NCBI RefSeq assembly: GCF_022760955.1
Contig: NZ_JAKTNU010000015.1
Coordinates: 1 to 60,300, forward strand
DNA: 60,300 nt
Origin: Thermus neutrinimicus
Lineage (GTDB): Bacteria > Deinococcota > Deinococci > Deinococcales > Thermaceae
Reading direction: 5' to 3'
A program made the position numbers and the translations under genes. The first letter of the stretch is position 1, and every line of letters starts with the position of its first letter. The notes below the pieces were generated by a model, which was given only the letters and a program-made list of their open reading frames with translations, did no database searches and was not told where the DNA came from. Positions 13,853 through 38,062 of the stretch are shown here, piece after piece.

Positions 13853-15661
13853 ATGGAGCCGCAAATCCTCTTTAAGCTCCGCTTCCTTTCGGACCTGACC
13901 CCTGGCCCCGACGGCTTCCCCCTCTTCCTGCTCACCGATATCCAGGAGGGGGATCCCCCCCGGTACCGCTCGCGCCTGGTCCTTTTTGACGGCGCCTTGC
14001 GCTTGCTCACCCAGGAGGAGGCCAAAAAGCCCCGCTATGCCCATCCTTACGTCTACTTCCTGCGCAAGGTGGGGGAGGCCCAGGAGCTTTTTCGCCTGGA
14101 CCTGAGGGGTGGGGAGGCGGAGAGGCTTACGGAAACCCCGGGGGTCTTGGACTACGCCGTGGGTCCTGAAGGGGAGGTGGTTTTCCTGGCCCTGAAGGAG
14201 GCTCCCAGGCCGGGTAGCCCCCGCACCTACGAGGGATGGCCCTTCAAGTTCGACGGCCGGGGCCTCCTCCCCGAGGGGAATGTGGCCCTTTATGCCCTCG
14301 AGGGGAGCCGAAAGAGGCTTCTTCTGGACCGCTATCCTGCTCCCAAGGAAATGGTACCCTCCCCCGAGGGGCTTTACCTGGTGATGGCCGAGGATGTGCA
14401 GGCCCAGGCGGAGTGGCGGGACACCCTCTACTTGCTTGGGGAAGGGGGGCTACGAAGGGTCTACGGTGGCTTTGGCCCCATCTTCGCCCTGGAGTGGAGC
14501 CCGGAAGGGCCCTTCTTCCTGGGCCACGCCTTTGAGCACGGAGGGGGCACGGAGGCCCGGCTTTACCACCTGCGCGGCGGGGAGGCCCGGGTTCTCCTTG
14601 AAGGGAGCCTGCACAACTCCATCAACTCTGATCTCCGCCACGGGGCCCATATCCAAGGGCCCAGGTGGGCCGGGGATGGGGTCTACATCGTGCGCACGGA
14701 GGAGGGGACGGGAAGGCTTTACCGGGTGGGCCTCGAGGGGGAGGCCGAGGCCCTGCCCATAGAGGGGAGTGTCCTTTCCTTTGCCCTCACGGAGCGGGGC
14801 CTCTTCCTCCTCACCGAGGACTTTACCCACCCGGCCCGGCTTTGGGGTCCCTTAGGGGTCTACGACCCCAACGAGGGGGTTTCCCTGCCCCTGGCCGAAC
14901 CCATCTACACCGAGTGGCCGAGCCCGGAGGGGCACCGGGTGCCGGGGTGGGTCCTGCTTCCAGAAGGGCCAGGCCCCCACCCGGTCATCCTTTACATCCA
15001 CGGGGGGCCCCACACCGCCTTCGGGCGGGCGCCCATGCTGGAGCTCCAGCTTTTCCGGCAGGCGGGATATGCGGTGGCCTTCGCCAATCCGCGGGGTTCC
15101 ACCGGCTACGGCCAGGACTTTGCCCTCCTCCAAGGGGAATGGGGGGAGCGGGACGAGCGGGACCTCCTGGGTTTTTTGGACCATGTCCTGGCCCATTTCC
15201 CCTTGGATCCTGGCCGCGTGGGGGTGGCGGGGGGTAGTTACGGGGGCTACATGGTGAACTGGCTTACCGCCCGCCACCCGGAACGCTTCAAGGCGGCGGT
15301 CACCGACCGGAGCATCGCCAACTGGTTCAGTTTCTTCGGGGCCAGCGACATCGGTCCCCGCTTCGCCTTTATGGAGCTTAGGGCTAGGCCCTGGGAGAGG
15401 CCGGAGGTGCTTTGGGAGAAAAGCCCCCTGCGCCATGTCCACCGGGTGCGGACGCCCACCCTGGTGGTCCATTCCGAACAGGACCACCGCTGCCCCATAG
15501 ACCAGGGGGAAACCTGGTACACGGCCCTCCTCCACCTGGGGGTTAAGGTGCGCTTTTTCCGCGTTCCCGAGGAAGGGCACGAGCTTTCCCGCTCCGGCAG
15601 GCCAGACCGGAGGATCGCCCGGCTCCAGGCCTACTTGGACTGGTGGCGGGAAAACCTCTAG
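13853..15661 (+). CDS. S9 family serine peptidase (acylaminoacyl-peptidase-like)
   Basis: 602 aa. An N-terminal beta-propeller (about 1-340, repeated blades such as LYLLGEEGGLRRV) is followed by an alpha/beta-hydrolase domain. The catalytic serine lies in GVAGGSYGGYMVNW (about 465), the Asp in VVHSEQDHRCPID (about 550), and the His in VPEEGHELSRSGRPDRR (about 580); the oxyanion HGGPHTAFG is at about 385. The propeller gate and the H-E-L-S-R-S motif are typical of oligopeptide/acylaminoacyl peptidases. No signal peptide, so cytoplasmic. The start chosen is the ATG 7 bp after the -10 TATTAT (13841-13846), leaderless; an earlier in-frame ATG at 13829 would precede the promoter. Confidence 0.92.
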   Translation: MEPQILFKLRFLSDLTPGPDGFPLFLLTDIQEGDPPRYRSRLVLFDGALRLLTQEEAKKPRYAHPYVYFLRKVGEAQELFRLDLRGGEAERLTETPGVLDYAVGPEGEVVFLALKEAPRPGSPRTYEGWPFKFDGRGLLPEGNVALYALEGSRKRLLLDRYPAPKEMVPSPEGLYLVMAEDVQAQAEWRDTLYLLGEGGLRRVYGGFGPIFALEWSPEGPFFLGHAFEHGGGTEARLYHLRGGEARVLLEGSLHNSINSDLRHGAHIQGPRWAGDGVYIVRTEEGTGRLYRVGLEGEAEALPIEGSVLSFALTERGLFLLTEDFTHPARLWGPLGVYDPNEGVSLPLAEPIYTEWPSPEGHRVPGWVLLPEGPGPHPVILYIHGGPHTAFGRAPMLELQLFRQAGYAVAFANPRGSTGYGQDFALLQGEWGERDERDLLGFLDHVLAHFPLDPGRVGVAGGSYGGYMVNWLTARHPERFKAAVTDRSIANWFSFFGASDIGPRFAFMELRARPWERPEVLWEKSPLRHVHRVRTPTLVVHSEQDHRCPIDQGETWYTALLHLGVKVRFFRVPEEGHELSRSGRPDRRIARLQAYLDWWRENL

Positions 15662-15667
15662 TACCTA

Positions 15668-15694
15668 CCCCGCCCTGGCAAAGCCAGGGCGGGG
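15668..15694. terminator. Terminator between S9 peptidase and DUF3467 genes
   Basis: CCCCGCCCTGGC-AAA-GCCAGGGCGGGG, a perfect 12-bp stem, placed between two convergent genes and able to serve both. Confidence 0.75.
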
Positions 15695-15710
15695 AGTCCC
15701 GCCATCCCCA

Positions 15711-15977
15711 TTAGGCCTGGCTCTCGGCCACGGGCTCGGGAATGGGGCCGAAGACTTCCTCGTACCGGGCTACGTTTTCCGCCAGGCTCCGGAGAAGGGC
15801 CTTGGCGTGCTGGGGGCTGGTGATCACCCGGCTGACCACCAGGGCCCCGCCCTGGGGTTGCAACAGGGCGAAGTCCAGGATGAACTCGTTCTTGGTGTGG
15901 GCGATGAGGGCCAGGTTGGTGTACCGGCCCAGGGCCACCTCCTTGTCGATTTGGATATCCAGTTTCAGCTCGCTCAT
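15711..15977 (-). CDS. DUF3467 family protein
   Basis: 88 aa. Matches the DUF3467 pattern: YTNLALIAHTKNEFILDFALLQP, VVSRVITSPQHAKALLRSL and ENVARYEEVFG. Proteins of this family are found in bacteria and archaea and have no settled function; the fold predicts a small beta-rich adaptor. The gene overlaps the preceding roadblock-like gene by 4 bp and is last in the ebfC-recR operon, with its terminator just downstream. Confidence 0.85.
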   Translation of the reverse strand: MSELKLDIQIDKEVALGRYTNLALIAHTKNEFILDFALLQPQGGALVVSRVITSPQHAKALLRSLAENVARYEEVFGPIPEPVAESQA

Positions 15978-16324
15978 CTAAGGGCCTCCTCCAACTTGGG
16001 TACGGTCCTCTTCAAGGCCAGGCGTACCCGCCCCAGGCTTCTCACGCTGTCCAGGAGAAGGAGCAGGTGATAGCCGGGAAGGGGCACCAGTAGCAGGGCC
16101 CCCTCGGGGTACTCTACCATGACCTCCTCCACCCCTTCCTGGCCCAGGATCTGGGCCAGGGCCTTGGCGGTGCCCAAGACCGTGGCCGCCCGGGCGGAAA
16201 GAAGGCTGGCCTCAGGGGCCTCCGCCTCCCGGGCCTCCTCCACCACAAACCCGTCCTCGCTGAGGAGGGCGGCCACCCGTACTCCCCTGGTGGCCTTGAG
16301 TTCCTGTAGGGCTTGTTCCACCAT
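15974..16324 (-). CDS. Roadblock/LC7-like protein, third of three
   Basis: 116 aa. Roadblock/LC7 layout: first helix (MVEQALQELKATRGV), strand VAALLSEDGFVVEEA, long helix with LLSARAATVLGTAKALAQIL, strands EEVMVEYPEGALLLVPLPGYHLLLLLD, and final helix. Family members (MglB, for example) dimerise and act as GAPs or scaffolds for small Ras-like GTPases. No MglA-type GTPase gene is in the window. 13 bp after the second roadblock-like gene and overlapping DUF3467 by 4 bp. Confidence 0.78.
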   Translation of the reverse strand: MVEQALQELKATRGVRVAALLSEDGFVVEEAREAEAPEASLLSARAATVLGTAKALAQILGQEGVEEVMVEYPEGALLLVPLPGYHLLLLLDSVRSLGRVRLALKRTVPKLEEALR

Positions 16325-16337
16325 GCCTCCTTAGCCG

Positions 16338-16667
16338 TCAGAGGTTCTGCACCCTGAGGGCGATGCGGGAAAGCTCCTGTCCGATGGCCTTGCGGTCCAT
16401 GCCCCGCTCCACCACCGCCCCCAGGATGTACTCCCCTACCCGTAGGGCCAGGATTTCGTGGGTGTCCGTGGCAAGGGTAAACCGGCGCACCTCCCCGGAG
16501 AGGGCTTCCGCCAAGGGGGTCATGTGCCGCACCAGGGAGGCCAGCTCCGCCGCCAGCACCTCCGCCGGGGGGCTTCCCCGGCCCAGGGCCTCGATGACCA
16601 GGCCGTCCAGGCCCGTGAGCACCGCCCGCTTAACGCCAAAGGGGGTCAGGCTCTCTAGGTAAGCCAT
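16338..16667 (-). CDS. Roadblock/LC7-like protein, second of three
   Basis: 109 aa. Same outline as its neighbours: an initial strand pair VKRAVLTGLDGLVIEALGRG, a central helix VLAAELASLVRHMTPLAEAL and a paired strand region RRFTLATDTHEILALRVGEYILGAVVE. The G-L-D-G-L-V core is typical of roadblock domains. It overlaps the upstream roadblock-like gene by 13 bp, so translation is coupled. The distribution of three diverged copies in a row suggests heteromeric assembly rather than redundancy. Confidence 0.75.
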   Translation of the reverse strand: MAYLESLTPFGVKRAVLTGLDGLVIEALGRGSPPAEVLAAELASLVRHMTPLAEALSGEVRRFTLATDTHEILALRVGEYILGAVVERGMDRKAIGQELSRIALRVQNL

Positions 16668-17065
16668 CCCGCCACCTCCGCCAGCCTATCCGCCGCCTTG
16701 GCTGTCTGCACGCGGGCCTGGCCCAGGTTGGCTTCCGGCCCCAGGAGGAGAAGGAGGAAAAGCTCCTCGTGTCCCTGGCCTCGAGGCGAGGGTCCCTGGG
16801 GTCCTGGGCCTATCCTGCGCACCACGCGGGCATAGCCTACCACGGGATTACCCCCCACCAAAAGCTCGTGCACCCGGGAGGTGCCCAGGCTTGCGGCATA
16901 GGCGGCCTTGGCCTGGCGCAAAAGGGCGGCGTGTTCCGCCACCGCCGCCTCGAGGTCAAGCCGCCTGCGCCTGGCCCCTTCCACCAGGAGCCCGTCCAGG
17001 GTGCCAATGGCGGCGGCAAGGGCTCCTTCCACCTGGTCCAGGAGGTGTTGCAAAAGCTCCTCCAT
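16655..17065 (-). CDS. Roadblock/LC7-like protein, first of three
   Basis: 136 aa. Starts with helix MEELLQHLLDQVEGALAAA, then strand IGTLDGLLVEGA, a long helix (AAVAEHAALLRQAKAAYAAS) and paired strands VHELLVGGNPVVGYARVV and ELFLLLLLGPEANLG. Between the last two strands an inserted Gly/Pro/Gln-rich loop (about 90-100) is longer than usual. The fold assignment rests on the strand-helix-strand pattern and on the company of two better matches. It follows recR by 16 bp. Confidence 0.7.
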   Translation of the reverse strand: MEELLQHLLDQVEGALAAAIGTLDGLLVEGARRRRLDLEAAVAEHAALLRQAKAAYAASLGTSRVHELLVGGNPVVGYARVVRRIGPGPQGPSPRGQGHEELFLLLLLGPEANLGQARVQTAKAADRLAEVAGWLT

Positions 17066-20221: not shown

Positions 20222-20248
20222 AGTATACCAGGAATGGCTTTGGGTCAA
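20222..20248 (-). promoter_or_regulatory. MFS transporter promoter
   Basis: Minus strand: TTGACC (20243-20248), 15-bp spacer, TATACT (20222-20227). The -35 overlaps the stop codon of the upstream 583-aa gene. Confidence 0.5.
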
Positions 20249-21996
20249 GGGTTTTCCATCACCAGGTACGCAAGCCGCCTTCCCTCCCGGGCCAGGATCA
20301 CCATCTCCTCGGGGAGACGGTAGACCAGGAGGTCCTTGAGCCTTTGGGGCACCTCCCCCGCCTGGCCCACGTAAAGGACGTCCTCCTGGGGATCTTGGGA
20401 AGGGGCGTTCCTTGGGCGCAGGGAAAGGACGGTTTGCCCCACCTTGAGGGCCAAGGGTTCGGCCCCGATGGAAAGAAGGTGCACTTCTCCTCCTAGGGTT
20501 TCCCGGGTGGGGGGGCGGCGGCCCAGGTACTCCCTTAGGGCCGCCGCCAGGACCAGGGCTTCCTGCTCCTGCCCCAGGGCCTGGCCCACCTCCTGGAGGA
20601 GGGGGGTAGGGTCCGCCCCACCCAGGCGCTTCAGGGAGAGCTCCAAGACCTTGCGGGCAAAGTCCTGCAGGGCTTCCCAAGGGGCCTGGCGGTACTTCCC
20701 TGCCAGCTCGGGGCCAAAGGCCTGGGGGCTGAACTCCCCTTTTAAGCGGGCGGAAAGGGCCCTGAGGAGGCGTAGGTAGACATGGTCCTGGCTAGGGTTT
20801 AAGAGGAGGGCCAGCATCCGTCCCTCGGCCAGGAGCTCGTAAAGCTTGAGCCCGCTTCGCGCCTCGAGCCTCAGGTGGAGGAGCTCTCCCTCCCGCACCG
20901 CCAGGACCTCGAGGTCCTCCCATGGGATCACCAGGGTGTCCTCCAGCACATGGTCCTCCCCGCCCAGCCCCAGGTGCCACGTCCCCTCCACTTGGCTCAG
21001 GGTGAGGACAAGGGGGCCTAGGGGGATCCGACCTGGCCTTAAGGGCAGGGTGAGGAGGTTTTCCTCCCCCTGGCCGGGTTCGGGAACCCTGGGCCACGGG
21101 GTTTCCCCTTGGGGGGTGGGAAGGAGGTTCAAGAGGGCCAGAACCTTTTCCGCCGCCACACGGAAGCGGCGCCGTTCCTCTTCCAGGAGGAGCTCCCGCC
21201 GCCTTTCCTCTTGGGCCTCTTTCCTAAGGCGCTCTTCCAGCCGGGCGATCTCCAACGCGCTGGCTCCCAGGTTCTTGGCCTCCTCCAGGGCCTTTTTCAG
21301 GGGCAAAAGGTCCCGCTTGGGAGGGAGGCCGTAGGCTTCCTCCCACTCCAGGATGCGGTTCAGGAAGCGGCGGATGTAGGTGCGGGTTTCCTCGGGGGGC
21401 AAGGGAAGGTCCTGGGGCAGGTGCAGGGTGGTTTCCAAAAACTCCGTTACCAGGGCCTCGGCTACCTTGGGGTCCTCGAGGTCCATGAGGCTATCGGAAA
21501 GCGAGGGGATGGGCTGGGTAGGATGGAAGCGGGAGAGGTTGAAGTCCCGCTTGAAGGTTTCCTTTTCCCGGTACTCCAGGTAATTCCCCAAGAAGGCGTG
21601 GATGAGCCTGAGTTCCTCCCGCCTTCCCGTGAGGAGGTCCTTGGCCCGGGCCTTGACCTCCCGCTCTGCCAGGAGGCGCCACACCTTTAAGGCCATGGCC
21701 CGTAAGGGGGAAGGCTTTTCGGTGGGGGTGGGCTCCTCCAGGTTCTCCGGGGCCGGTGGGAGGAGGTCCAGGGGAGGGGTCTCCGCGGGTGGGGAAGGGT
21801 TAAGGCTTTGCCGCAGGGCCCGGAAGCGGGCATCGGCCTGGCGGAAGCGCTTGGCCAAGGGCCCTGGCAAGCGAGCTTGGATGAGGAAGGCCCTCAGTTG
21901 CAGGAGAGCCCTCTTGCCCCCTTTGGGGGTGCGGCCTAGGGCCAGGTCCTCCACCCGGTACTCGTAGAGGTCCACCAGGTCGGCCAGGTGTTCCAC
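20245..21996 (-). CDS. Large hypothetical protein divergent from PP2C/Ser-Thr kinase operon
   Basis: 583 aa, start GTG (MEHLADLVDL). Function not recognised. Residues 1-65 are a helical domain, 66-100 a Pro-rich linker (PPAETPPLDLLPPAPENLEEP), 100-240 helical (RLIHAFLGNYLEYREKET), 235-290 a charged coiled coil (LEERLRKEAQEERRREL), and 300-583 alternating strands and helices. No signal peptide or membrane segment, so cytoplasmic. It shares an overlapping promoter with the divergent PP2C gene (22005-22012) and would be leaderless. The location suggests it is a partner or substrate of the phosphatase/kinase pair, but that is inference from position only. Confidence 0.7.
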   Translation of the reverse strand: MEHLADLVDLYEYRVEDLALGRTPKGGKRALLQLRAFLIQARLPGPLAKRFRQADARFRALRQSLNPSPPAETPPLDLLPPAPENLEEPTPTEKPSPLRAMALKVWRLLAEREVKARAKDLLTGRREELRLIHAFLGNYLEYREKETFKRDFNLSRFHPTQPIPSLSDSLMDLEDPKVAEALVTEFLETTLHLPQDLPLPPEETRTYIRRFLNRILEWEEAYGLPPKRDLLPLKKALEEAKNLGASALEIARLEERLRKEAQEERRRELLLEEERRRFRVAAEKVLALLNLLPTPQGETPWPRVPEPGQGEENLLTLPLRPGRIPLGPLVLTLSQVEGTWHLGLGGEDHVLEDTLVIPWEDLEVLAVREGELLHLRLEARSGLKLYELLAEGRMLALLLNPSQDHVYLRLLRALSARLKGEFSPQAFGPELAGKYRQAPWEALQDFARKVLELSLKRLGGADPTPLLQEVGQALGQEQEALVLAAALREYLGRRPPTRETLGGEVHLLSIGAEPLALKVGQTVLSLRPRNAPSQDPQEDVLYVGQAGEVPQRLKDLLVYRLPEEMVILAREGRRLAYLVMENP

Positions 21997-22004
21997 CCAT
22001 TCAT

Positions 22005-22012
22005 CCTATAAT
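22005..22012. promoter_or_regulatory. Overlapping divergent -10 elements (583-aa protein / PP2C)
   Basis: Minus -10 TATAGG at 22005-22010 and plus -10 TATAAT at 22007-22012. Start codons are 24 bp apart (21996 and 22020) and both messages would start at or next to the start codon. Confidence 0.55.
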
Positions 22013-22019
22013 GGGTCCG

Positions 22020-22775
22020 ATGCGCCTGGCTCCCCGTTATAGCGTGGCCGCGGTCTCCCATGTGGGCCGTCGCCAGAACAACGAGGACTTCCACCGGGTG
22101 ATGCGCCTCGAGGTCCCCCAGGGCAACCTCCTCCTCCTGGCGGTGGCCGACGGCATGGGGGGAATGGAGGCGGGGGAGTGGGCCAGCAAGGTGGCCATAG
22201 AGGCCCTTTCCGAGGTGGTGCGGGCCTATGCGGAGCACCTGAGGGGGGGCCGGCCCGCGGTGGGCCTGGCCCGGGTGATGGAAAAGGCCTTCACCCTGGC
22301 GGCCAGGCGGGTGGAGAAGGAGGCGGAGCGGCTTGGGAAAAGGGGCATGGGCACCACCCTCACCGCCTTCCTCTATGCGGACTGGCTCAAGGAGGGGGTG
22401 GTGGGGCACATCGGGGACTCCCGGGCCTACCATTTCAGCCCCAGGGGGCTAAAGCGGCTCACCGAGGATCACTCCTGGGTGGCGGAGCGCCTGAGGGAAG
22501 GGGTTCTGACCCGCACCGAGGCCGAGCGCCACCCCTACCGCAACGTCCTCACCCGGGCCTTGGGCCTGCCGCAAGCCCGCTTTGACCTCCAGGGGGTGCA
22601 CCTGGCCCCAGGGGAAGGGGTGCTTTTGGTCACGGATGGGCTTTACGGCCTGGTGCCCGAGGAGGAGTGGATCTTGGGCAAGGACCTGCAGGCGAGCCTC
22701 GAGGGGCTCCTCTCCGAGGCTTTGCGCCGGGGCGGGGACGATAACGTCACCGCCGTGGCCTTACGGGTGGAGTGA
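22020..22775 (+). CDS. PP2C-family Ser/Thr protein phosphatase
   Basis: 251 aa from the second ATG (MRLAPRYSVAAVS); the first ATG at 22011 overlaps the -10 box. PP2C metal-binding motifs in order: RRQNNEDFHRV, AVADGMGGMEAGE (about 40-52), GHIGDSRAYHF (about 125), LVTDGLYGLV and GGDDNVTAVALRV at the end. It dephosphorylates Ser/Thr-phosphorylated proteins with Mn2+/Mg2+. The stop overlaps the kinase start by 1 bp (TGATG), so the two antagonists are made together. Confidence 0.95.
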   Translation: MRLAPRYSVAAVSHVGRRQNNEDFHRVMRLEVPQGNLLLLAVADGMGGMEAGEWASKVAIEALSEVVRAYAEHLRGGRPAVGLARVMEKAFTLAARRVEKEAERLGKRGMGTTLTAFLYADWLKEGVVGHIGDSRAYHFSPRGLKRLTEDHSWVAERLREGVLTRTEAERHPYRNVLTRALGLPQARFDLQGVHLAPGEGVLLVTDGLYGLVPEEEWILGKDLQASLEGLLSEALRRGGDDNVTAVALRVE

Positions 22776-24730
22776 TGCAGGGACTTCTGGCCTTCCTCCT
22801 GGTTCTCCTCACCGCAGCCCTGGCCTCCCGCCTTTCCCCCTGGCCCCTTTGGTTCCTCCTGCTTTTCCTCGCGGGAGCCGCCTGGGCCACGGGGGTCCGG
22901 GCGGAGGCGGTCTTCCCCTGGCTGCTTTTGGGCCTGGGGTTCCTGGCCGCACCCCGGGTCTACCTGGGTCCCCGGCGGCGGGCCCCAAGGCGCCCCCGTA
23001 CCCAAGGACAGGCTTCTTCCGCCTACAAGACCACGGAGGAGGCCCAGGCCCTGGGAAAACAGTACGAGATCCTGGAGAAGGTGGGCGTGGGGGGCATGGC
23101 CACCGTGTACAAGGCCAAGGACAGGAAAACCGGGCGGCTGGTGGCCCTCAAGGTTCCCCAGGAGCGCTTTGTGGGCGACCCCCGGTTCGTGCGCCGCTTC
23201 CACCGGGAGGCGGAGGTCCTGGCCAAGATGGACCATCCCAACATCGTTAAGGTCTACGACCACGGCCAGGTGGACGGGGTGCACTATATCGCCATGGAGT
23301 ACCTGGAGGGGGAGGGTCTGGACAAGCTTATCGAGGAAAGGCGCCTTTCCCTGAAGCAGGCGGCAGCCATCCTGGCCCGGGTGGCCGATGCCCTTAAGCA
23401 CATCCACGCCCAAGGCATTGTCCACCGGGACATCAAGCCGGGAAACATCATGGTGCTCAAGGGGGCCCTGAAGGAGGATGGGGTGGACCCCAGGGGGGTG
23501 CGGCTCATGGACTTTGGCATCGCCGCCGGCAAGGTGCTTACCCGCCTCACCATCACCGGGGCCCGCATCGGCACCCCGGTCTACATGAGCCCGGAACAGG
23601 CCAAGGGACAGAAGCTGGACCATCGCTCGGACATCTATTCCTTGGGCATCGTTCTCTACGAGGCCCTGACCGGCCAGCCTCCCTTCACCGGGGGGTACGA
23701 GACGGTGATCCACCAGCAGATCTTCCAGGTGCCCACCCCTCCCAAGCAGCTCAATCCCCAGGTTCCCCAGGTTCTTTCCGACCTGGTCCTGCGGATGCTG
23801 GAGAAGGACCCAGCCAAGCGTCCCAGTTTGGAGGAGGTGATCCAGGGGCTTTTGGGGCCCTGGGAGGAGGAACGGGGCCTGCCCCATCCCTTTTACCTGC
23901 TCTTGGGGGTGGAGGCCAAGAAGGGTACGGTGCGGCTTCTGGACCTTTCGGGCACCGCTGCCCGGCTCCTTTCCGGCATCGGTTCCGGCCCGGGCTACTT
24001 CCCGGCCCCTCCTCTCTCCGTGGCCGCCGATGAGGAGGGGGGCATCTGGATCTCGGTTTTTGAACATGGGGCTAGGCTCCTTCACCGCTTCTCCCCGGAA
24101 GGAGAGCTCCTTCTTTCCACCGGGCCTTACGGCATGAAGCCTGGGGAGTTCCTCTTTCCCGCGGCCCTGGCGGTGGCCAACGGTAGCCTCTTCGTCCTGG
24201 ACTCGGAGACCGCCACGGTGAGCCGGCTGGACTTAAAGGGGCAGTACCAGGAGCGCTTTGGCGGCCAGGGGCCTGGGCGGGGCACCTTTCAGGATCCCAA
24301 GGCCCTGGTGGCCACGCCGGAGTTCCTCTTCGTCCTGGACTACGGTAACCGCCAGGTGCAGCGCTTGGCCCCGGATGGACGCTACCTTTCCCGCTATGCC
24401 TTCCGCCGTTCTAAGGAAAGCGAGGAGCTAAGGCTTTTGGGTGGGGTGGGGGTGGAGGGGGAAAGGCTTTACCTCTACGATGTGGAGGCGGCCAAGGTAC
24501 GGGTGCTGGATTTTTCCGGGTCCCTTCTCGCCTCCCACGCCCTACCCCTTTTGGAGGGGGAGGACCGTATGAGCCTGGTGGAGCTTTTGCCCTTTGGGGG
24601 GATCCTCTATGCGGCGAGGCGTGGGGCGAGCCGCATCCACCGCATAGACCTGAGGACCGGGGAGGCCCTGCCGCCCTTGGAGGTTTATGCTCCCGTGCGG
24701 GCCCTTTCCCTTTGGCGAAACCCGGCATGA
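22775..24730 (+). CDS. Membrane Ser/Thr protein kinase with C-terminal beta-propeller
   Basis: 651 aa. Residues 2-65 hold two or three membrane segments (LLAFLLVLLTAALA, then LWFLLLFLAGAAWA), followed by a basic Pro/Arg linker and a Hanks-type kinase domain about 97-365: Gly loop VGVGGMATVY, VALK with the ATP Lys at 126, HRDIKPGN (catalytic Asp 219), MDFGIA, MSPEQ activation end. From about 380 to 650 repeated VAVANGSLFVLDSETATV-like segments form an NHL-type propeller. Usually a membrane helix lies between kinase and propeller so that the propeller faces outside; here the membrane part is N-terminal, so both domains should be on the same (cytoplasmic) side. Coupled to PP2C (1-bp overlap) and to the response regulator (4-bp overlap). 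Confidence 0.93.
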   Translation: MQGLLAFLLVLLTAALASRLSPWPLWFLLLFLAGAAWATGVRAEAVFPWLLLGLGFLAAPRVYLGPRRRAPRRPRTQGQASSAYKTTEEAQALGKQYEILEKVGVGGMATVYKAKDRKTGRLVALKVPQERFVGDPRFVRRFHREAEVLAKMDHPNIVKVYDHGQVDGVHYIAMEYLEGEGLDKLIEERRLSLKQAAAILARVADALKHIHAQGIVHRDIKPGNIMVLKGALKEDGVDPRGVRLMDFGIAAGKVLTRLTITGARIGTPVYMSPEQAKGQKLDHRSDIYSLGIVLYEALTGQPPFTGGYETVIHQQIFQVPTPPKQLNPQVPQVLSDLVLRMLEKDPAKRPSLEEVIQGLLGPWEEERGLPHPFYLLLGVEAKKGTVRLLDLSGTAARLLSGIGSGPGYFPAPPLSVAADEEGGIWISVFEHGARLLHRFSPEGELLLSTGPYGMKPGEFLFPAALAVANGSLFVLDSETATVSRLDLKGQYQERFGGQGPGRGTFQDPKALVATPEFLFVLDYGNRQVQRLAPDGRYLSRYAFRRSKESEELRLLGGVGVEGERLYLYDVEAAKVRVLDFSGSLLASHALPLLEGEDRMSLVELLPFGGILYAARRGASRIHRIDLRTGEALPPLEVYAPVRALSLWRNPA

Positions 24731-25380
24731 GGGTGCTTCTGGTGGAGGACGACCCAGGGGTTCGGGAGGCCTTGGAGCTGGGGCTTTCCCTCGAGGGGCA
24801 TGAGGTCAAGGCCACGGAGAGCCCGCAGGAAGCCCTAAGCCTTCTTCCCTGGGCGGAGGTGGTGGTTTTGGATGTGCTTCTGCCCGAAAGGGACGGCTTT
24901 TCCCTGCTTAAGGATATCCGCGCCCGTTCGGAGGTGCCCGTGCTGATGCTCACCGCCTTGGACGCGGTGGAGTGGCGGGTGAAGGGCCTCAGGGAAGGGG
25001 CGGACGACTACCTGGTCAAGCCCTATAGCCTCTCCGAGCTCCTGGCCCGCCTCGAGGCCCTCTGGCGCCGCGCCCATAGGGGAAAGGAGGCCCGGGAGGC
25101 TTTGGCCTACAAGGACCTGAGGCTTTATCCCAGGCGCATGGAAGCCTTCCGGGGGGAGAGGAGGCTTTCCCTTCCCCCCAAGGCCTTCCTTCTCCTGAAG
25201 GCTTTCTTGGAATCCCCGGAGGAGGTGCTTTCCAAGGAGGCTTTGATGCGGAGGGTTTGGGGGGAGGAGGTGGACCCCGCCACCTTGGAGGTGCACCTTT
25301 CCCTCTTAAGGAAGGCCCTGGGGGAGCCCAGTCCCATCCAGACGGTGCGCGGCTATGGCTATCGCCTTTTCCTCCCTTAG
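24727..25380 (+). CDS. OmpR-family response regulator
   Basis: 217 aa. Receiver domain with acidic pair EDD at 7-9, phospho-acceptor Asp49 in VVVLDVLLPERDGF, Thr in MLTAL and Lys in YLVKPYSL; C-terminal winged helix (about 125-217) with GEEVDPATLEVHLSLLRKAL and the terminal VRGYGYRLFLP. The ATG overlaps the kinase stop (ATGA), and the histidine kinase starts inside its last 26 bp, so translation is coupled. Targets are unknown. Confidence 0.95.
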   Translation: MRVLLVEDDPGVREALELGLSLEGHEVKATESPQEALSLLPWAEVVVLDVLLPERDGFSLLKDIRARSEVPVLMLTALDAVEWRVKGLREGADDYLVKPYSLSELLARLEALWRRAHRGKEAREALAYKDLRLYPRRMEAFRGERRLSLPPKAFLLLKAFLESPEEVLSKEALMRRVWGEEVDPATLEVHLSLLRKALGEPSPIQTVRGYGYRLFLP

Positions 25381-26659
25381 GGGGAGGCTTTTCGCCCTTC
25401 TCTTCCTGGCCCTTTTGCTTCTGGCCCTGCCCCTGGCCTTCCTTTCCGCCAAGGAGGCGGAAAGGGCGGCCAGCGAGGACCTGCGCCGGGCCCTTTACAC
25501 CCGGCTTTACCTCCTGGGTGAGGAGGGACCCAGGGAAGAAGGGGCCCTGCTTCTTGAGCTTTTCCGCCTAGCCCAGGCTTACGGGGGCGGCACGGGTTTC
25601 GTGATGGGGAAGGAGGGTGTGGCCTTCACCGAGGTGCCCTCCCCGGACCTTCCCCCTGGTCTCCTCGAGGCCCTCGCCCAAGGGCGGGCCTACCAGGGGG
25701 TGTGGCGGGGGGTGCTCTACGTGGCCCTGCCCCGGGAGGGGGGAGGGTTCGGCCTGGCGGTACCCTTGGAGGGGGTTGCCGGCCTGGGACGCAGGCTTCT
25801 CCTCCTCTACGCCACCTGGGGTGGCGGGGTGCTCCTGGCCATCTTTCTCCTCTCCGCCCTGGGGCTTGCCTGGGCCCTCCGTCCCCTGGGGCGGCTGGCA
25901 AAGCTCCTCCAGGCACGGCGGCCCGAGGACCTAAGCCCCCTTCCCGACCCGGGTCTGGCGGAGCTTCGGCCCTTGGTGGGGGCCTTAAACAGCCGTTTGG
26001 CCCAAGTGGAGGGGCTTCTTAGGGAGCTTTCCGAAAAGGAGGAGGCGGCCCGCCGCTTTGCCCGCCATGCCTCCCACGAGCTCCGCAATCCCCTGGCGGC
26101 CTTGAAGGGGTACTTGGAGGTGCTCCTGCGCAAGCCCGAGCCCAGGGCCCTCGCCGGGGCCTTGCGGGAAGCGGAAAGAATGGAGGCCCTGCTCTCCGGA
26201 CTCCTCAGGCTGTCCCGCCTCGAGGCCGCCTCCCCTAGGCTTACCCCCTTGGACCTGCGGGCTTTCTTGGGAAGGTGGGGCCTGGAGGTGGAAGGGGAAG
26301 GCCAGGTCTTGGCGGACCCCGAGCTTCTCGCCCTGGCGGTGGAAAACGTGTGGGACAATGCCCGCCGGCACGGGAGGCTTCCCCTCAGGGCCAGGATCCA
26401 GCGGGAGGAGGAGGGGGTTTGGCTATGGCTTGTGGACTCCGGGCCTGGCTTTCCCAAGGAGCTTTTGCCCCGGGTCCTGGAGCCTTTTGTCCATGGGGGA
26501 AAGGGCACGGGCCTGGGCCTGGCCTTGGTGGCAGCGGTGGCCCGGGCCCATGGGGGAAGAGCCTGGGCGGAGAACCAAAAGGGGGCGGCGGTGGGGCTAT
26601 GGTTGCCTTTGGCTTCCCTTAAGGTTTCGCCCGATGCGCCCTTTAGCCAGAGGGGATAG
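25355..26659 (+). CDS. Sensor histidine kinase
   Basis: 434 aa. Membrane segments at about 10-32 and 147-172 bracket a periplasmic domain of about 115 residues without a recognisable fold. Then a HAMP-like linker, HisKA with the H-box His241 (ARHASHELRNPLAA), and HATPase: N-box NVWDNARRHG, G1 DSGPGF and GKGTGLGLAL. It should phosphorylate the adjacent regulator. The first 26 bp overlap the regulator gene. Two small secreted proteins of unknown role follow. Confidence 0.95.
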   Translation: MAIAFSSLRGRLFALLFLALLLLALPLAFLSAKEAERAASEDLRRALYTRLYLLGEEGPREEGALLLELFRLAQAYGGGTGFVMGKEGVAFTEVPSPDLPPGLLEALAQGRAYQGVWRGVLYVALPREGGGFGLAVPLEGVAGLGRRLLLLYATWGGGVLLAIFLLSALGLAWALRPLGRLAKLLQARRPEDLSPLPDPGLAELRPLVGALNSRLAQVEGLLRELSEKEEAARRFARHASHELRNPLAALKGYLEVLLRKPEPRALAGALREAERMEALLSGLLRLSRLEAASPRLTPLDLRAFLGRWGLEVEGEGQVLADPELLALAVENVWDNARRHGRLPLRARIQREEEGVWLWLVDSGPGFPKELLPRVLEPFVHGGKGTGLGLALVAAVARAHGGRAWAENQKGAAVGLWLPLASLKVSPDAPFSQRG

Positions 26660-26683
26660 CCTTTATGGCGGAGGTGATAGGGG

Positions 26684-27262
26684 ATGAAGCGGGCGTTCAC
26701 GGGTTTGGTTCTCCTGATGGCGGGCCTTTCCTTGGCCCAGGGTACGGATTACGGGCAGGCGGCGGTGGCCTCGGCGACCTTGGCCAGGCTCCAGACGGTG
26801 GCCCAGGGGGCCACGGGGGAGGAGAAGCTTCTCGCCTGGGCCAAGGAGGTGAAGGCCCGGGCGGAGGGGAGCTACGAGGCCAAGGCGTACTTCAAGGCGG
26901 CGCGGGAGGCCCAGGCCGCCCTTCTCCTTTTCCGGGCGGCCTCGGGGGAGTCCCAGGTGCAGGCCCGGGGGCCGAAGCCTGCCCCCCGGATGGGCATGGG
27001 GAGGCACCCTTCCTTTGGACCCAGGGGCCATGCCTCTGCCCCCTGGGGTAAGGGGTGGCCGGGCCTGGATGCCCGCCGGGCCCAGCGGGTCCCGGGGGTG
27101 GTGGACCGGGCGGAGAAGGAGCTGGCCTACTACCGGGCCCAGGACAGCCTGGTGAAGGACCTGGTGGCCGAGGCCAAGGATAGGCTTTCCAAGGAGCCTG
27201 GCCGGGCCTTCCTGCTGGCCCGGGCGGCCTTGGCCCTGATCTCGGCGGAACGGGGCTTCTAA
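26684..27262 (+). CDS. Secreted hypothetical protein, Ala/Gly-rich
   Basis: 192 aa with a signal peptide (MKRAFTGLVLLMAGLSLAQG, cleavage near 19). The rest is Ala/Gly/Arg-rich with helical repeats rich in AAREAQAALL and RARAALALI, and a Met/Gly/Pro-rich unstructured middle (about 95-125). No family recognised. It lies 24 bp after the histidine kinase stop and 2 bp before the next secreted protein, so it is probably in the signalling operon. It might be the envelope component sensed or controlled by the kinase, but that is inference. Confidence 0.7.
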   Translation: MKRAFTGLVLLMAGLSLAQGTDYGQAAVASATLARLQTVAQGATGEEKLLAWAKEVKARAEGSYEAKAYFKAAREAQAALLLFRAASGESQVQARGPKPAPRMGMGRHPSFGPRGHASAPWGKGWPGLDARRAQRVPGVVDRAEKELAYYRAQDSLVKDLVAEAKDRLSKEPGRAFLLARAALALISAERGF

Positions 27263-27264
27263 GG

Positions 27265-27699
27265 ATGCGATGGCTTGGGGTCTTCCTCCTCCTGGCCCTT
27301 GGGGGCTGGGCCATGGGGGAGGAGGGCCCCAAGGGCTTTGGCCCCTCGGCGGAAGAGGCGCTGGCGCGCTGCCTTAAGGTGGTGCGGACCCTCGAGGTCC
27401 AGGCCCTCTACCGGGAAGGGGATACCCTGGTCCTGGCCCTGGGCCAGGCGGAAGGGAGGCCCCTGTTGCTTTTGGCCCTCGAGGGGGGAAGGCCCATGCC
27501 CTACATGGGCCCCATCCGCGGAAAGCCCATGCGAAAGCGCCCCTTTTTCTTCCTGCGGGAGCTTTCCCTGGCCCGGCGGGTGCTGGTCTTGCCCGAGGGG
27601 TACCGCTGCTTTGTCCTCCACCGGGGGCGGGTGGTGGGGGTGTTGCGCCTGGGCTTGGACCTCGCTCCCCTACCCCTTTCCCCGGAGGCCACCCCCTGA
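27265..27699 (+). CDS. Secreted hypothetical protein
   Basis: 144 aa with a signal peptide (MRWLGVFLLLALGGWAMG). The mature part has FGPSAEEALARCLKVVRTLEVQ, then strands LYREGDTLVLALGQAEGRPLLLLALE and a basic GPIRGKPMRKRPFFFLREL. One Cys at about 35. No family recognised. Two bases after the preceding secreted-protein gene, so co-translated with it. A 117-bp gap with a G/C-rich hairpin follows before the recombinase genes. Confidence 0.7.
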   Translation: MRWLGVFLLLALGGWAMGEEGPKGFGPSAEEALARCLKVVRTLEVQALYREGDTLVLALGQAEGRPLLLLALEGGRPMPYMGPIRGKPMRKRPFFFLRELSLARRVLVLPEGYRCFVLHRGRVVGVLRLGLDLAPLPLSPEATP

Positions 27700-33580: not shown

Positions 33581-35248
<1,668 letters not shown>

Positions 35249-35251
35249 AAC

Positions 35252-36982
35252 TCAAATTTCTTCGTAGGGTTCGCCGAGGTGATCGGCGAACCTGTTACCC
35301 GTGACTTCTTTTATTTTCTGAAGAATGAGCTTGCCGCGCTCCTGAACAAAAACTTCGTAGTGGTCGTCTGACAGAATGCTTGGTTTGATATCACCTTGAG
35401 GGCCTATCCTAATAGGCAAAAGGGCGCCAGCGAAGCGTTCATTCTGAACGCTGAAGTTGCCCTTTTCTACCAAGTCCTTTATGTACTCTGAGGGATTGCG
35501 ATTAGAAAGAAAGCGGTTGGTTTCTTTGGTAACCGGAACCAAGTTGGCGATGCTGTCAATATACTTCTTTCTTGCTCCAAAAGAGCGAGGGAAGAAGTGA
35601 TGCATTTCGAAATTTTCAGAAGTTATGGTTGCGCCGGAATAAAAGTCGGATTTAATGTGTCGGCGTAAAAGAGCCAAAGCGGCCTTGTACCTATTGTCAC
35701 TTTTAGCCAAGCGGACTAGCGTTTCCAAATCTAATTTGACAAGAGGGATGTCTTCTTCTGGCAAGTATCCACTTTTTTGCAAGCTATTTAGGCTTTGATA
35801 GTGAACAAAAATCCTGTAATTTGTGGCACGAAATCCACTCTGCATAACGTTGGCGAAAAACCATTGGACCAGTTGATCATGCTTTTGAATTAGGAAATTT
35901 TCTTGTTCTTTCTCCGATAATCCAGCGAGCACGGAGGCTAAAGCAACGAGCTGGCTTTCTCCAACATAGAATTGGGGTTCTAGTCCGCATTCCCGGCGTG
36001 CCCAAGTAATAGCCTTTACCAACGCATTTACGGCAGCTTCCCAGTGCTTGATGATGTCGCTTTTGCTAAGGCCAAGTTGCTCGCTTCGAGAAGGTTCCCT
36101 TCCCTTCTCCAAAAGGACGATTACTTGTAATAGCCGTTCGCCATCCACATCGAATTCGGATAAAACCGGATGGCTCTGGCGAGCCTTGTCAAATAAGTCC
36201 CGAAGGTCAGGGTAGGGGAAATAACGCGCTACAGCCAGATCGAAGGTTGTCAAGCGCGTGCCGGTCGAGTTAATGGTTTCAAAAATCCGACATATGGCTT
36301 CAACACCTTCTTGGCCTTCCAATAAGATGTAAGGCACCTGGTAATTGCGTATGGTTTCAAATACCCTATGCACTTTTTGAATAGCCTGCATTGCTCTTTC
36401 TTCTTGCTCCAAAAGGTGCTTCAGAAAATATTTGATAACGTATTGTTGTTCCTCACCTTCCAATATTAAATCTGCCCTAATCCAACGACCATCATTCCGG
36501 GTAGTATCTTCGCTTTTCCCCTTAGTTTGTTTGATCCAATCCGATCTTTCTTCATGGAAAGATTCGTAAATTTCCCCCAAATCAAACCAATATGTTTTAG
36601 ATGGGTTTGCGTTTAAGAGAACTCGCACAATGGAAGTTAACCTCTGTTGGCCGTCGAGGATTAGAAACTCTTGTGCTTCGGGAGTCACATCCTTGTTGGA
36701 AGGAGCATCTTTGTTATCAAGTTCAAAGTTTTGATTGTTTATTGAATCAGCATGCTCGGAATCCGCAATGGCAGCTTGCAGCGAGCGGGTGCTCAATTGG
36801 ATGTCGGGGCTCGGTTCTAAAAGCAAAAGGGAGCCTATGGGATAGTTTCGTGCAATGGAGTCGATCAGGAGTGCTACTTGAGCTTCATTCCACACAAAAT
36901 CCCTTTGAAACTGAGGCAACTTAAATTGTCCCGCCTTGGCTTTTTTGAGCAATTGTCTTATTGAAAGAGAACCTGTTTGCAT
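35252..36982 (-). CDS. DUF262 plus HNH-type protein (GmrSD/type IV restriction-like), AT-rich
   Basis: 576 aa. The N-terminal DUF262 domain starts with LSIRQLLKKAKAGQFKLPQFQR and has the ParB-like nucleotide-handling motif ILDGQQRLTSI (D110, GQQR). The C-terminal part carries a DUF1524/HNH-type site, EMHHFFPRS (His461/His462), followed by NLVPVTKETNRFLSN. This is the single-chain version of the GmrS/GmrD type that cuts modified DNA, so a role in phage defence is likely, not proven. G+C is about 42%, with AT-ending codons unlike every neighbour. It is wedged between pyrG (3 bp away) and the DUF815 gene. The promoter at 36991-37019 has a consensus -35 and gives a leaderless start. Confidence 0.85.
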   Translation of the reverse strand: MQTGSLSIRQLLKKAKAGQFKLPQFQRDFVWNEAQVALLIDSIARNYPIGSLLLLEPSPDIQLSTRSLQAAIADSEHADSINNQNFELDNKDAPSNKDVTPEAQEFLILDGQQRLTSIVRVLLNANPSKTYWFDLGEIYESFHEERSDWIKQTKGKSEDTTRNDGRWIRADLILEGEEQQYVIKYFLKHLLEQEERAMQAIQKVHRVFETIRNYQVPYILLEGQEGVEAICRIFETINSTGTRLTTFDLAVARYFPYPDLRDLFDKARQSHPVLSEFDVDGERLLQVIVLLEKGREPSRSEQLGLSKSDIIKHWEAAVNALVKAITWARRECGLEPQFYVGESQLVALASVLAGLSEKEQENFLIQKHDQLVQWFFANVMQSGFRATNYRIFVHYQSLNSLQKSGYLPEEDIPLVKLDLETLVRLAKSDNRYKAALALLRRHIKSDFYSGATITSENFEMHHFFPRSFGARKKYIDSIANLVPVTKETNRFLSNRNPSEYIKDLVEKGNFSVQNERFAGALLPIRIGPQGDIKPSILSDDHYEVFVQERGKLILQKIKEVTGNRFADHLGEPYEEI

Positions 36983-36990
36983 GCCAAAAT

Positions 36991-37019
36991 TCTAAATGGT
37001 GCGGATTGAGGGTTGTCAA
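36991..37019 (-). promoter_or_regulatory. Promoter of the AT-rich DUF262 gene
   Basis: Minus strand: TTGACA (37014-37019), 17-bp spacer, TTTAGA (36991-36996). The -35 overlaps the DUF815 stop codon. The predicted start point is about 36984, with the ATG at 36982. Confidence 0.65.
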
Positions 37020-38062
37020 GGGGTTGTACCCAATTGAGAGAGGGCGAACTGCCGGGCTACCCGTCCGGAGAAACCCTTCTGCAGGGCGAAGCGCAGGGCC
37101 TCGGCCTCCTCCTTGGGGGTCAGGGAGCGGCCCAGGTGGTGGACCACCGCCTGTAGGTAGAGGGCCTTGTCAAAGGGGGGGAAGGTGAGGACTAAGCCGA
37201 AGCGCTCGGAAAGGGCCAAGGCGTCCTGAAGGGCATCCCAGGCCGTGGGGCCTTCCCCAGGCAGGGGGTTTTCCCCAAGATGGCGCACCAGGTGGCGGCG
37301 GTTGGAGGTGGCCACCAGGAGGACGTTTTCCGGGGGACCCTCGAGGCTTCCTTCCAGGAGGGCCTTCAGGTGGTGGAAGGCCTCCTCTTTGGGGTCCAGG
37401 GAGAGGTCGTCCAGGAAGAGGAAAAAGCGGTGGGGAAGAAGGGCCAGCCTCTCCAGCAGGCTTTCCAGGTGGTCTAGGGCCTTGGGCTCCACCTCCACCA
37501 TGCGGGCTTGCGGAAGGTGCAAAAGGCTCTTGGCGGCGGTGCTTTTGCCCGTGCCCCGGGCCCCGTAGAGGAGGGTGTGGAGGGCGGGTTTCCCCGACAG
37601 GAACCGGAGGGCATTGGCCTTGAGGGCCTTAAGCTGCTCCTCGTAGCCCAGAAGCTCGTCCTCCCGGGGCAGGCGGGGGTTTTCCAGGGGACGCACCTCG
37701 CCAAAGAAGCGGAAGGTCCGGTAGAGGGCAAAGGGATAGGGCCCGTGGGCTTGGAGTACCCGGGCCAGGGCCTCGGGGTTGCGGGCGAGGAGGGCGGCCA
37801 GGGCCTCTTCCTCAGCGGGGTAGGGGGGGCGTTCCCCCAGGTCGGCTAAAGGGTACTCCCTTCGCCTCTCCTCCAGTTCCAAGGAAAGGGCCTCGAGGTC
37901 CTGCCGCAAAAGCTGCATCAGCCCCGGGGTGGGCCTTAGGGCCCGCCAGGCCCAGGGGGCTTTGAGGAGGCTTTGGGCGAAGGCGTAGCCCCAGGGTTCC
38001 CCCCGGGGCAAGTCCAGGTCCAGGAGGTCCAGGGGAGTCTTGGGGAGCTCCATGGGCCCCAT
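37016..38062 (-). CDS. DUF815 family AAA+ ATPase
   Basis: 348 aa; an alternative start three codons in (MELPKTPLDL, 38053) is equally good. Walker A LLYGARGTGKSTAAKSLL (about 165), Walker B RFFLFLDDLSLD and sensor 1 VLLVATSNRRHLV place it in the DUF815/YcaC-like AAA+ group; C-terminal residues LTFPPFDKALYLQAVVHHL belong to the lid. About 140 residues before the Walker A are helical. The function is unknown; members are often near tRNA genes and membrane/toxin loci. Its 5' end lies 12 bp past the tRNA terminator. Confidence 0.88.
   Translation of the reverse strand: MGPMELPKTPLDLLDLDLPRGEPWGYAFAQSLLKAPWAWRALRPTPGLMQLLRQDLEALSLELEERRREYPLADLGERPPYPAEEEALAALLARNPEALARVLQAHGPYPFALYRTFRFFGEVRPLENPRLPREDELLGYEEQLKALKANALRFLSGKPALHTLLYGARGTGKSTAAKSLLHLPQARMVEVEPKALDHLESLLERLALLPHRFFLFLDDLSLDPKEEAFHHLKALLEGSLEGPPENVLLVATSNRRHLVRHLGENPLPGEGPTAWDALQDALALSERFGLVLTFPPFDKALYLQAVVHHLGRSLTPKEEAEALRFALQKGFSGRVARQFALSQLGTTP

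Follow-up and report, generated by a model that had tools for sequence, protein, structure and literature searches.

A conserved divergent gene, a PP2C-type phosphatase and a Ser/Thr kinase form a putatively ancient unit next to a two-component system in Thermus neutrinimicus

Introduction

PP2C-type phosphatases paired with Ser/Thr kinases are established, in other bacteria, to reverse the autophosphorylation of the partner kinase as well as the phosphorylation of its substrates. Here we describe a locus with such a pair on a stretch of 60,300 nucleotides from the 2.06-Mb genome of Thermus neutrinimicus (contig NZ_JAKTNU010000015.1, positions 1 to 60,300 of the forward strand; C15 in our set), referred to below as the window. 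The locus encodes a PP2C-type Ser/Thr phosphatase (PP2C_A), a Hanks-type Ser/Thr protein kinase (STPK), an OmpR/PhoB-type response regulator (RR), a sensor histidine kinase (HK), the small proteins S192 and S144 and, on the opposite strand, a protein of 583 residues (U583). We propose, with a probability of about 0.5, that it consists of two modules, an older Ser/Thr unit with U583 as a dedicated partner and a shared promoter, and an RR-HK pair that became attached to this unit in the Thermus line.

Ser/Thr kinases can also phosphorylate regulators, and passages of PMC4601284 name CovR (at Thr65), WalR, VraR, RitR and RR06. Crosstalk from kinase to regulator is thus a known kind of interaction, and it is possible for this locus. 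At the level of promoters, a TANNNT motif about 6–7 bp before open reading frames (ORFs) is known in the phylum as a leaderless promoter and, according to a portion of PMC12340547, precedes approximately 30% of the ORFs. Bidirectional promoters of Escherichia coli mostly have start-to-start distances of 18 bp, with 10 and 23 bp also occurring (PMC12825309, in excerpt), and competition between polymerases shows when one direction is strongly activated. A 2025 phosphosite study of T. thermophilus states that the kinases responsible are yet to be identified (PMC12667214, in excerpt), and a literature search of limited extent, which is no proof of absence, turned up no work on this unit in Thermus.

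The original prediction for this DNA read the overlapping PP2C_A, STPK, RR and HK genes as a single crosstalking circuit and gave U583 a passing mention only. The structure it described is real, but it took the younger association as the key one. We regard U583, the long-standing neighbour of the kinase, as the interesting part of the block.

Results

Conservation of the divergent gene arrangement

Gene neighbourhoods were taken from 48 genomes other than that of the window in a Thermaceae set of 50 genomes, using tblastn with 12 window proteins; G denotes a genome, L a locus, g2–g14 genera and f2–f5 other families. U583 was present in 49 of the 50 genomes, and the window protein was up to 92% identical to those of the same genus (90% in a Thermus scotoductus record). 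At all 48 loci, counting the frame-broken L082, the genes for U583 and PP2C adjoin and diverge, and STPK comes next after PP2C wherever there is room (46/46; the contigs of L070 and L071 stop at PP2C). The same divergent unit was found in seven of seven loci of a second family (f4, genera g12 and g13) and in a third family, f2, at L129 and L131. In f3/f5, STPK keeps PP2C beside it at 8 of the 10 loci that were read (L169, L170, L171, L174-L177 and L180; not L178 and L179). Throughout the Deinococcota, U583 was detected in 95 of 111 genomes (20-row profile, E≤0.001) and STPK, once per genome, in 103 (19-row profile, E≤1e-120). A pattern scan of contigs for U583 gave 81 matching stretches, 26 of which were confirmed; these belong to Thermus, Meiothermus, Calidithermus, Thermaceae and Deinococcales records and one titled just 'bacterium'. 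Judged by gene order, the ancient unit appears to be U583 together with the divergent PP2C-STPK pair, older, more conserved and less explained than the link to RR-HK.

Two loci showed broken frames. At L082 (G038, a genome 87% complete) the U583-PP2C-STPK-RR block is affected and no HK match was found, which may reflect sequencing errors or decay; at L042 (G030, 14917-17031) the U583 frame is broken near its end, with two matches in different frames.

The region between U583 and PP2C_A

The start codons of U583 and PP2C_A are separated by 23 bp in the window, and the spacer measures 20–26 bp in 45 of the 48 Thermaceae loci. U583 had been described as facing the operon, which was not borne out, as the orientation is divergent (start to start) and not convergent. 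Both genes carry the -10 motif of leaderless genes, with TANNNT 7 nt upstream of PP2C_A and 6 nt upstream of U583, and the opposed boxes overlap by 2 bp, a motif characteristic of bidirectional promoters. As a background, TANNNT occurs 5–9 nt upstream of 39 of the 1700 ATG/GTG codons in the window. Across the 26 Thermus loci, the end of the PP2C box is always 7 nt away from the start codon, and that of the U583 box 6 nt away in 25 loci (9 nt in L038). The Thermus spacers range from 23 to 38 bp, yet the box-to-start distances hold; where two bases are inserted between the boxes, both distances are unaltered. Related genera have box distances of their own: 8 and 9 in g4 (spacer 22 bp in 17/17 loci), 10 and 9 in g3 (24 bp) and 7 and 8 in g5 (20 bp). 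By eye, a TATTATA core near the start of U583 is common to the seven f4 loci, while their PP2C leader is longer and purine-rich. From these motifs we predict that the intergenic region is a bidirectional leaderless promoter, and we infer its transcription start sites.

Co-absence of U583 and PP2C_A and the activation loop of STPK

A PP2C profile separated the PP2C proteins of the 111 genomes into two classes, those adjacent to STPK (weakest E 1.1e-66) and the others (best E 1.6e-53). U583 was absent from 16 genomes, PP2C_A from 19 and both from 13, ten of which keep STPK; some assemblies scored for absence, among them G018, G051, G067 and G072, are incomplete. In genus g14 (L172 and L173) the gene order is recR-hemB-MFS-STPK, with U583 and PP2C gone. 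Co-absence likewise extends to f5, a family whose genomes do not have the two genes side by side.

The activation loop of STPK was read in 102 loci and in the window. One conserved pattern was present in 88 of the 89 kinases accompanied by PP2C_A, the exception, G038, being unreadable due to its broken frame. Of 14 STPKs without PP2C_A, 12 had a loop that departed from this pattern, whereas none of the 51 tree-set kinases accompanied by PP2C_A did; these counts use a pattern loosened to allow the Val of G106 and G107, both of which then conform. Changes were scored at positions invariant in PP2C_A genomes, 15 in the loop and 73 elsewhere in the kinase domain. They numbered 6/15 in the loop versus 4/73 in the remainder in both G110 and G108, 4/15 versus 1/73 in G109, 3/15 versus 5/73 in G100, 3/15 versus 1/73 in G072, 3/15 versus 3/73 in G104, 2/15 versus 3/73 in G107, and 1/15 versus 3/73 in G106. 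On an STPK tree of 65 rows, built with the loop left out, PP2C_A required 6 changes, U583 7 and the loop 6. The loop test was post hoc, conceived after the first loops had been seen. Furthermore, the kinases of genomes that lost PP2C_A have long branches in this tree, so that general relaxation is an alternative account of the loop changes.

Several results weigh against an old unit with a dedicated partner and a shared promoter. U583 was not found beside PP2C/STPK in f3/f5 (30 of 30 loci) or at L130, a fragment from f2; no hit to either gene came up in the surrounding stretches, several of which are short. U583 alone is absent in three genomes (G051, G074, G090), and PP2C_A alone in six that keep U583 (G072, G086, G087, G104, G106, G107). 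Genus g2 has a spacer of 141–143 bp, in which a box is present on the PP2C side, at a distance of 10, but the one for U583 is gone. Six g14 rows have 2/15 changes in the loop versus 6–7/73 in the rest, the loop evolving hardly faster than the remaining kinase. Finally, independent-pair tests on the tree were not significant: three pairs lay on supported branches, none of them opposite, and with so few pairs significance was out of reach. Statistical proof of co-loss was therefore rejected as a claim, the independent events being too few.

It may be asked whether U583 is unrelated to Ser/Thr signalling and shares the promoter by historical accident, as the other, varying neighbours of U583 in f3/f5 genomes would suggest. 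The co-absence with PP2C_A even in f5, and the divergent arrangement with a -10 core conserved across two families, argue against such an accident, which we consider rather unlikely.

Gene products of the locus

The features of the locus are compiled in Table 1.

Table 1. Positions of genes, domains and predicted promoter elements in the window.
Feature	Position	Strand	Remarks
U583	20245..21996	-	GTG start; 583 aa, no family
Predicted -10 box TAGGAT for U583	22003..22008	-	ends 6 nt before GTG 21996
Predicted -10 box TATAAT for PP2C operon	22007..22012	+	ends 7 nt before ATG 22020
PP2C_A, PP2C-type Ser/Thr phosphatase	22020..22775	+	251 aa from revised start
STPK, Hanks-type Ser/Thr kinase	22775..24730	+	651 aa
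STPK kinase domain PF00069	23063..23845	+	
STPK activation-loop segment, residues 249-270	23519..23584	+	conserved where PP2C_A present
RR, OmpR/PhoB-type response regulator	24727..25380	+	217 aa
HK, sensor histidine kinase	25355..26659	+	434 aa
S192	26684..27262	+	192 aa, signal-peptide-like N-terminus, no family; at locus in Thermus and sister genus
S144	27265..27699	+	144 aa, signal-peptide-like N-terminus, no family

STPK is a Hanks-type kinase by its PF00069 match (191.7 bits, cut-off 31.7, E 2e-56) and by K126, H217-R218-D219 and D246-F247-G248, all invariant in 19 orthologues. Its kinase domain is nearest to PknB among solved structures. However, no PASTA match was found in STPK, so that it does not belong to the PASTA kinases (PknB/Stk1), and NF033483 matched the kinase part only, with 315 bits versus a cut-off of 450. 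The C-terminus gave one stretch of similarity to PF01436 (NHL; 16.6 bits, below the cut-off of 20) and weak SGL/TolB-like matches. The sole hydropathy segment of the window protein is 3–21, with none after the kinase domain; weak peaks at 453–477 in 4 of 19 orthologues fall within the repeat domain. STPK is thus probably held in the membrane by its N-terminus, with the kinase and the NHL-like domain in the cytosol. The genome of the window has four Pkinase matches, and no FHA domain was found in it by a search that was positive in 6 of 14 control genomes.

PP2C_A is of the Stp1/PrpC type according to PF13672 (PP2C_2; 55.5 bits, cut-off 24, E 7.6e-15), while the equivalog NF033484 scored 178 bits, below its cut-off of 230. 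D44-G45, D206 and D241, which we take to be the metal-binding Asp residues, are invariant in 16 orthologues. ATG 22011 was rejected as the start in favour of ATG 22020, because the former overlaps the -10 box and the orthologues align from 22020.

U583 lacks a hydrophobic segment in hydropathy analysis, suggesting a cytosolic protein. An AlphaFold2 model had a mean predicted local distance difference test score (pLDDT) of 85.9 (84.7 for residues 300–583 alone) and consisted of an N-terminal helical region, a long helix (247–291), a beta domain (314–379), a helical part (385–492) and a second beta domain (505–581). The coiled-coil nature attributed to U583 is therefore limited to the one long helix, the remainder being a predicted multi-domain protein. 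None of 20 members matched a Pfam family convincingly, the sequence profile had no hit in the PDB at E≤1, and, for both the whole model and residues 300–583, there was nothing at E≤0.001 with Foldseek or at Z≥8 with VIA-align 2. The best structural alignment reached Z 7.0 over 64 residues (root-mean-square deviation 2.6), and the top rows paired small helical or beta elements with a variety of proteins. Assignment of U583 to a known family was set aside, as no search, whether against Pfam, NCBIfam and PDB sequences or with Foldseek and VIA-align 2, gave a convincing match; the fold searches do not show that the fold is new or that it has no known counterpart.

No Pfam or NCBIfam family was assigned to U583, S192 or S144. 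S192 and S144 had been called secreted, in agreement with their N-termini as judged by eye, but neither was flagged at the hydropathy cut-off. For S192, about 70 residues at the C-terminus have matches in other proteins encoded elsewhere in Thermus and Meiothermus-type genomes.

Attachment of the two-component pair

RR (PF00072 and PF00486) and HK (PF00512 and PF02518) form a two-component pair of the OmpR/PhoB type, and the hydrophobic segments of HK (12–30 and 157–175) flank a probable extracytoplasmic stretch. As the original prediction stated, PP2C/STPK, STPK/RR and RR/HK overlap by 1, 4 and 26 bp. The STPK/RR overlap is 4 bp in all 24 Thermus loci with both genes intact, that of RR/HK 26 bp in 22 of 24 intact loci (32 bp in the remaining two), and that of PP2C/STPK 1 bp in 22 of 26 loci (the others being one of 4 bp, one with an alternative start and two broken or cut). 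Because these lengths are near-constant across Thermus, we judge that the overlaps are not due to chance. In addition, between 19800 and 28000 no sigma-70 -35/-10 pair was found, and terminators were not in excess (7 found versus 11 expected). The fixed overlaps and the lack of internal promoter pairs or a terminator excess support well, for Thermus, the co-synthesis of the block.

In every one of the 24 intact Thermus loci RR-HK directly follows STPK (from 26 loci, L056 was dropped for its contig end and L082 as broken), as it does at one locus of g5, the sister genus (25/25 together). Among the loci of genera g2, g3 and g4 that have room, 0 of 18 show this order; L068, L070 and L071 had been dropped from the 21 for contig ends. 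An HK match was present in 44 of the 50 Thermaceae genomes (E≤1e-40), with 48–53% identity outside Thermus and g5. The pair lies upstream of S144 and the AddB-like gene in G003 (g3) and G001 (g2), S144 being upstream of the AddB-like gene in the window as well as in two other genera. In G002 the pair is on the same strand as STPK but separated from it by 8.9 kb and several other genes, STPK being the upstream one. No HK match at E≤1e-40 was obtained in the Meiothermus-type genomes G008, G010, G011 and G015, though U583-PP2C-STPK is kept. In three f4 genomes with the kinase unit and comparable contigs (G058, G059, G060), HK matches are far from the kinase, the best having 40–42% identity over part of the protein. 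As the pair sits elsewhere or is absent beside STPK in other genera, its joining to STPK looks like a trait of the Thermus line; conceivably, an older junction was broken in the other genera instead. G006 has, at L079 (8245-10572), an RR/HK pair of another kind (38% and 33% identity) that begins 0.7 kb downstream from the STPK gene; here STPK may have met a two-component pair a second time, independently.

Tight gene overlaps are common in compact thermophile genomes, and the overlaps may reflect this compactness, RR-HK being co-transcribed with STPK while the two systems act independently. That other genera carry the pair at a different site, which in two of these genera precedes S144 and the AddB-like gene, is in line with such independence; the near-invariant overlap lengths across 24 Thermus loci are not, although shared ancestry alone could produce them. 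We give mere co-transcription about an even chance, and it is compatible with U583 as partner of the kinase unit.

The circuit proposed originally went further: STPK would phosphorylate RR directly, PP2C would reverse this, and the secreted proteins would serve as outputs or ligands. In addition to the overlaps fixed in Thermus, it could draw on precedents for modification of OmpR-family regulators by STPKs, as given in parts of PMC4601284. RR carries Ser101 and Ser169 in all 11 coupled rows of the alignment and in 0 of 5 uncoupled ones. As the pairing of STPK with RR-HK arose once, such residue differences between clades carry no statistical weight, and the two residues were rejected as kinase targets. 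A Ser after KPY/KPF is common in this regulator family, and at the place presumably equivalent to the phospho-threonine of WalR, RR has Val. Moreover, the kinase unit exists in other genera without RR-HK beside it. With the pair not beside STPK in 18 of 18 testable loci of three genera, nothing specific supports direct crosstalk, and we regard it as quite improbable.

Elsewhere in the window, G+C content drops to 0.585 and 0.556 within 34001-38000, compared to about 0.65 around it. This stretch, a possible island, lies between tRNA-Arg (32175) and tRNA-Lys (38099).

Discussion

In the two-module arrangement that we favour, STPK would be positioned at the membrane via its N-terminus and would be opposed by PP2C_A, which would reverse autophosphorylation and substrate phosphorylation. 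U583 would be the cytosolic partner of this pair and contact it, most likely as a substrate or as a scaffold on which PP2C acts. The overlapping -10 boxes would give leaderless or nearly leaderless mRNAs and keep U583, PP2C and STPK in step. RR-HK and the two small proteins would have been attached behind STPK in the Thermus line, where the mRNA of PP2C-STPK probably also yields the PhoB-like two-component pair and two small exported proteins. Translational coupling of RR-HK to STPK would mean that both signalling routes are made together; a signal might then pass between the modules.

A bolder version is that U583 represents a new, phylum-wide Deinococcota family of dedicated PP2C/STPK partners, in a genome without recognisable FHA readers, and that its ratio to kinase and phosphatase is set by a bidirectional leaderless promoter working one way at a time, and that loss of U583 and PP2C frees the activation loop. 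We consider this version unlikely as a whole. Many Thermus phosphosites have no assigned kinase, and U583 is a concrete first candidate partner, in a readily handled laboratory thermophile. If the promoter prediction is true, it would be a clean and evolutionarily deep case of overlapping leaderless promoters. Coupled Thermus and uncoupled Meiothermus, furthermore, offer a natural comparison on whether operon fusion brings crosstalk.

Among known systems, the locus resembles the PknB/PrkC-type kinases with their PP2C phosphatases (PstP/Stp1/PrpC) in the kinase domain, which is closest to PknB, and in the adjacent PP2C gene; it differs in that STPK has an NHL-like C-terminus in place of PASTA domains and in the divergent U583. 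A kinase domain followed by NHL repeats occurs in the kinases of M. tuberculosis (gi|2078052) and D. radiodurans (gi|6457717) described in a section of PMC1262709, and STPK, with its NHL-like C-terminus, may share this build. According to the same section, the kinase and the repeats of the M. tuberculosis protein are separated by its membrane span, whereas the hydrophobic part of STPK, according to hydropathy, is N-terminal. As in the CovR, WalR, VraR and RitR cases, an STPK and an OmpR-family regulator occur in one cell; here, by contrast, their genes overlap in one block and modification of the regulator is putative. The predicted promoter has the opposed, overlapping -10 boxes of E. coli bidirectional promoters, and its predicted start-to-start distance of about 23–24 bp in the window comes close to one of the common E. 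coli classes, but both mRNAs are predicted to be leaderless and the arrangement is conserved over two bacterial families. It likewise shares TANNNT about 6–7 bp before the ORF with the leaderless -10-motif genes of Deinococcus-Thermus, as excerpted from PMC12340547, and is distinguished from single genes of this type by having two such motifs back to back and overlapping.

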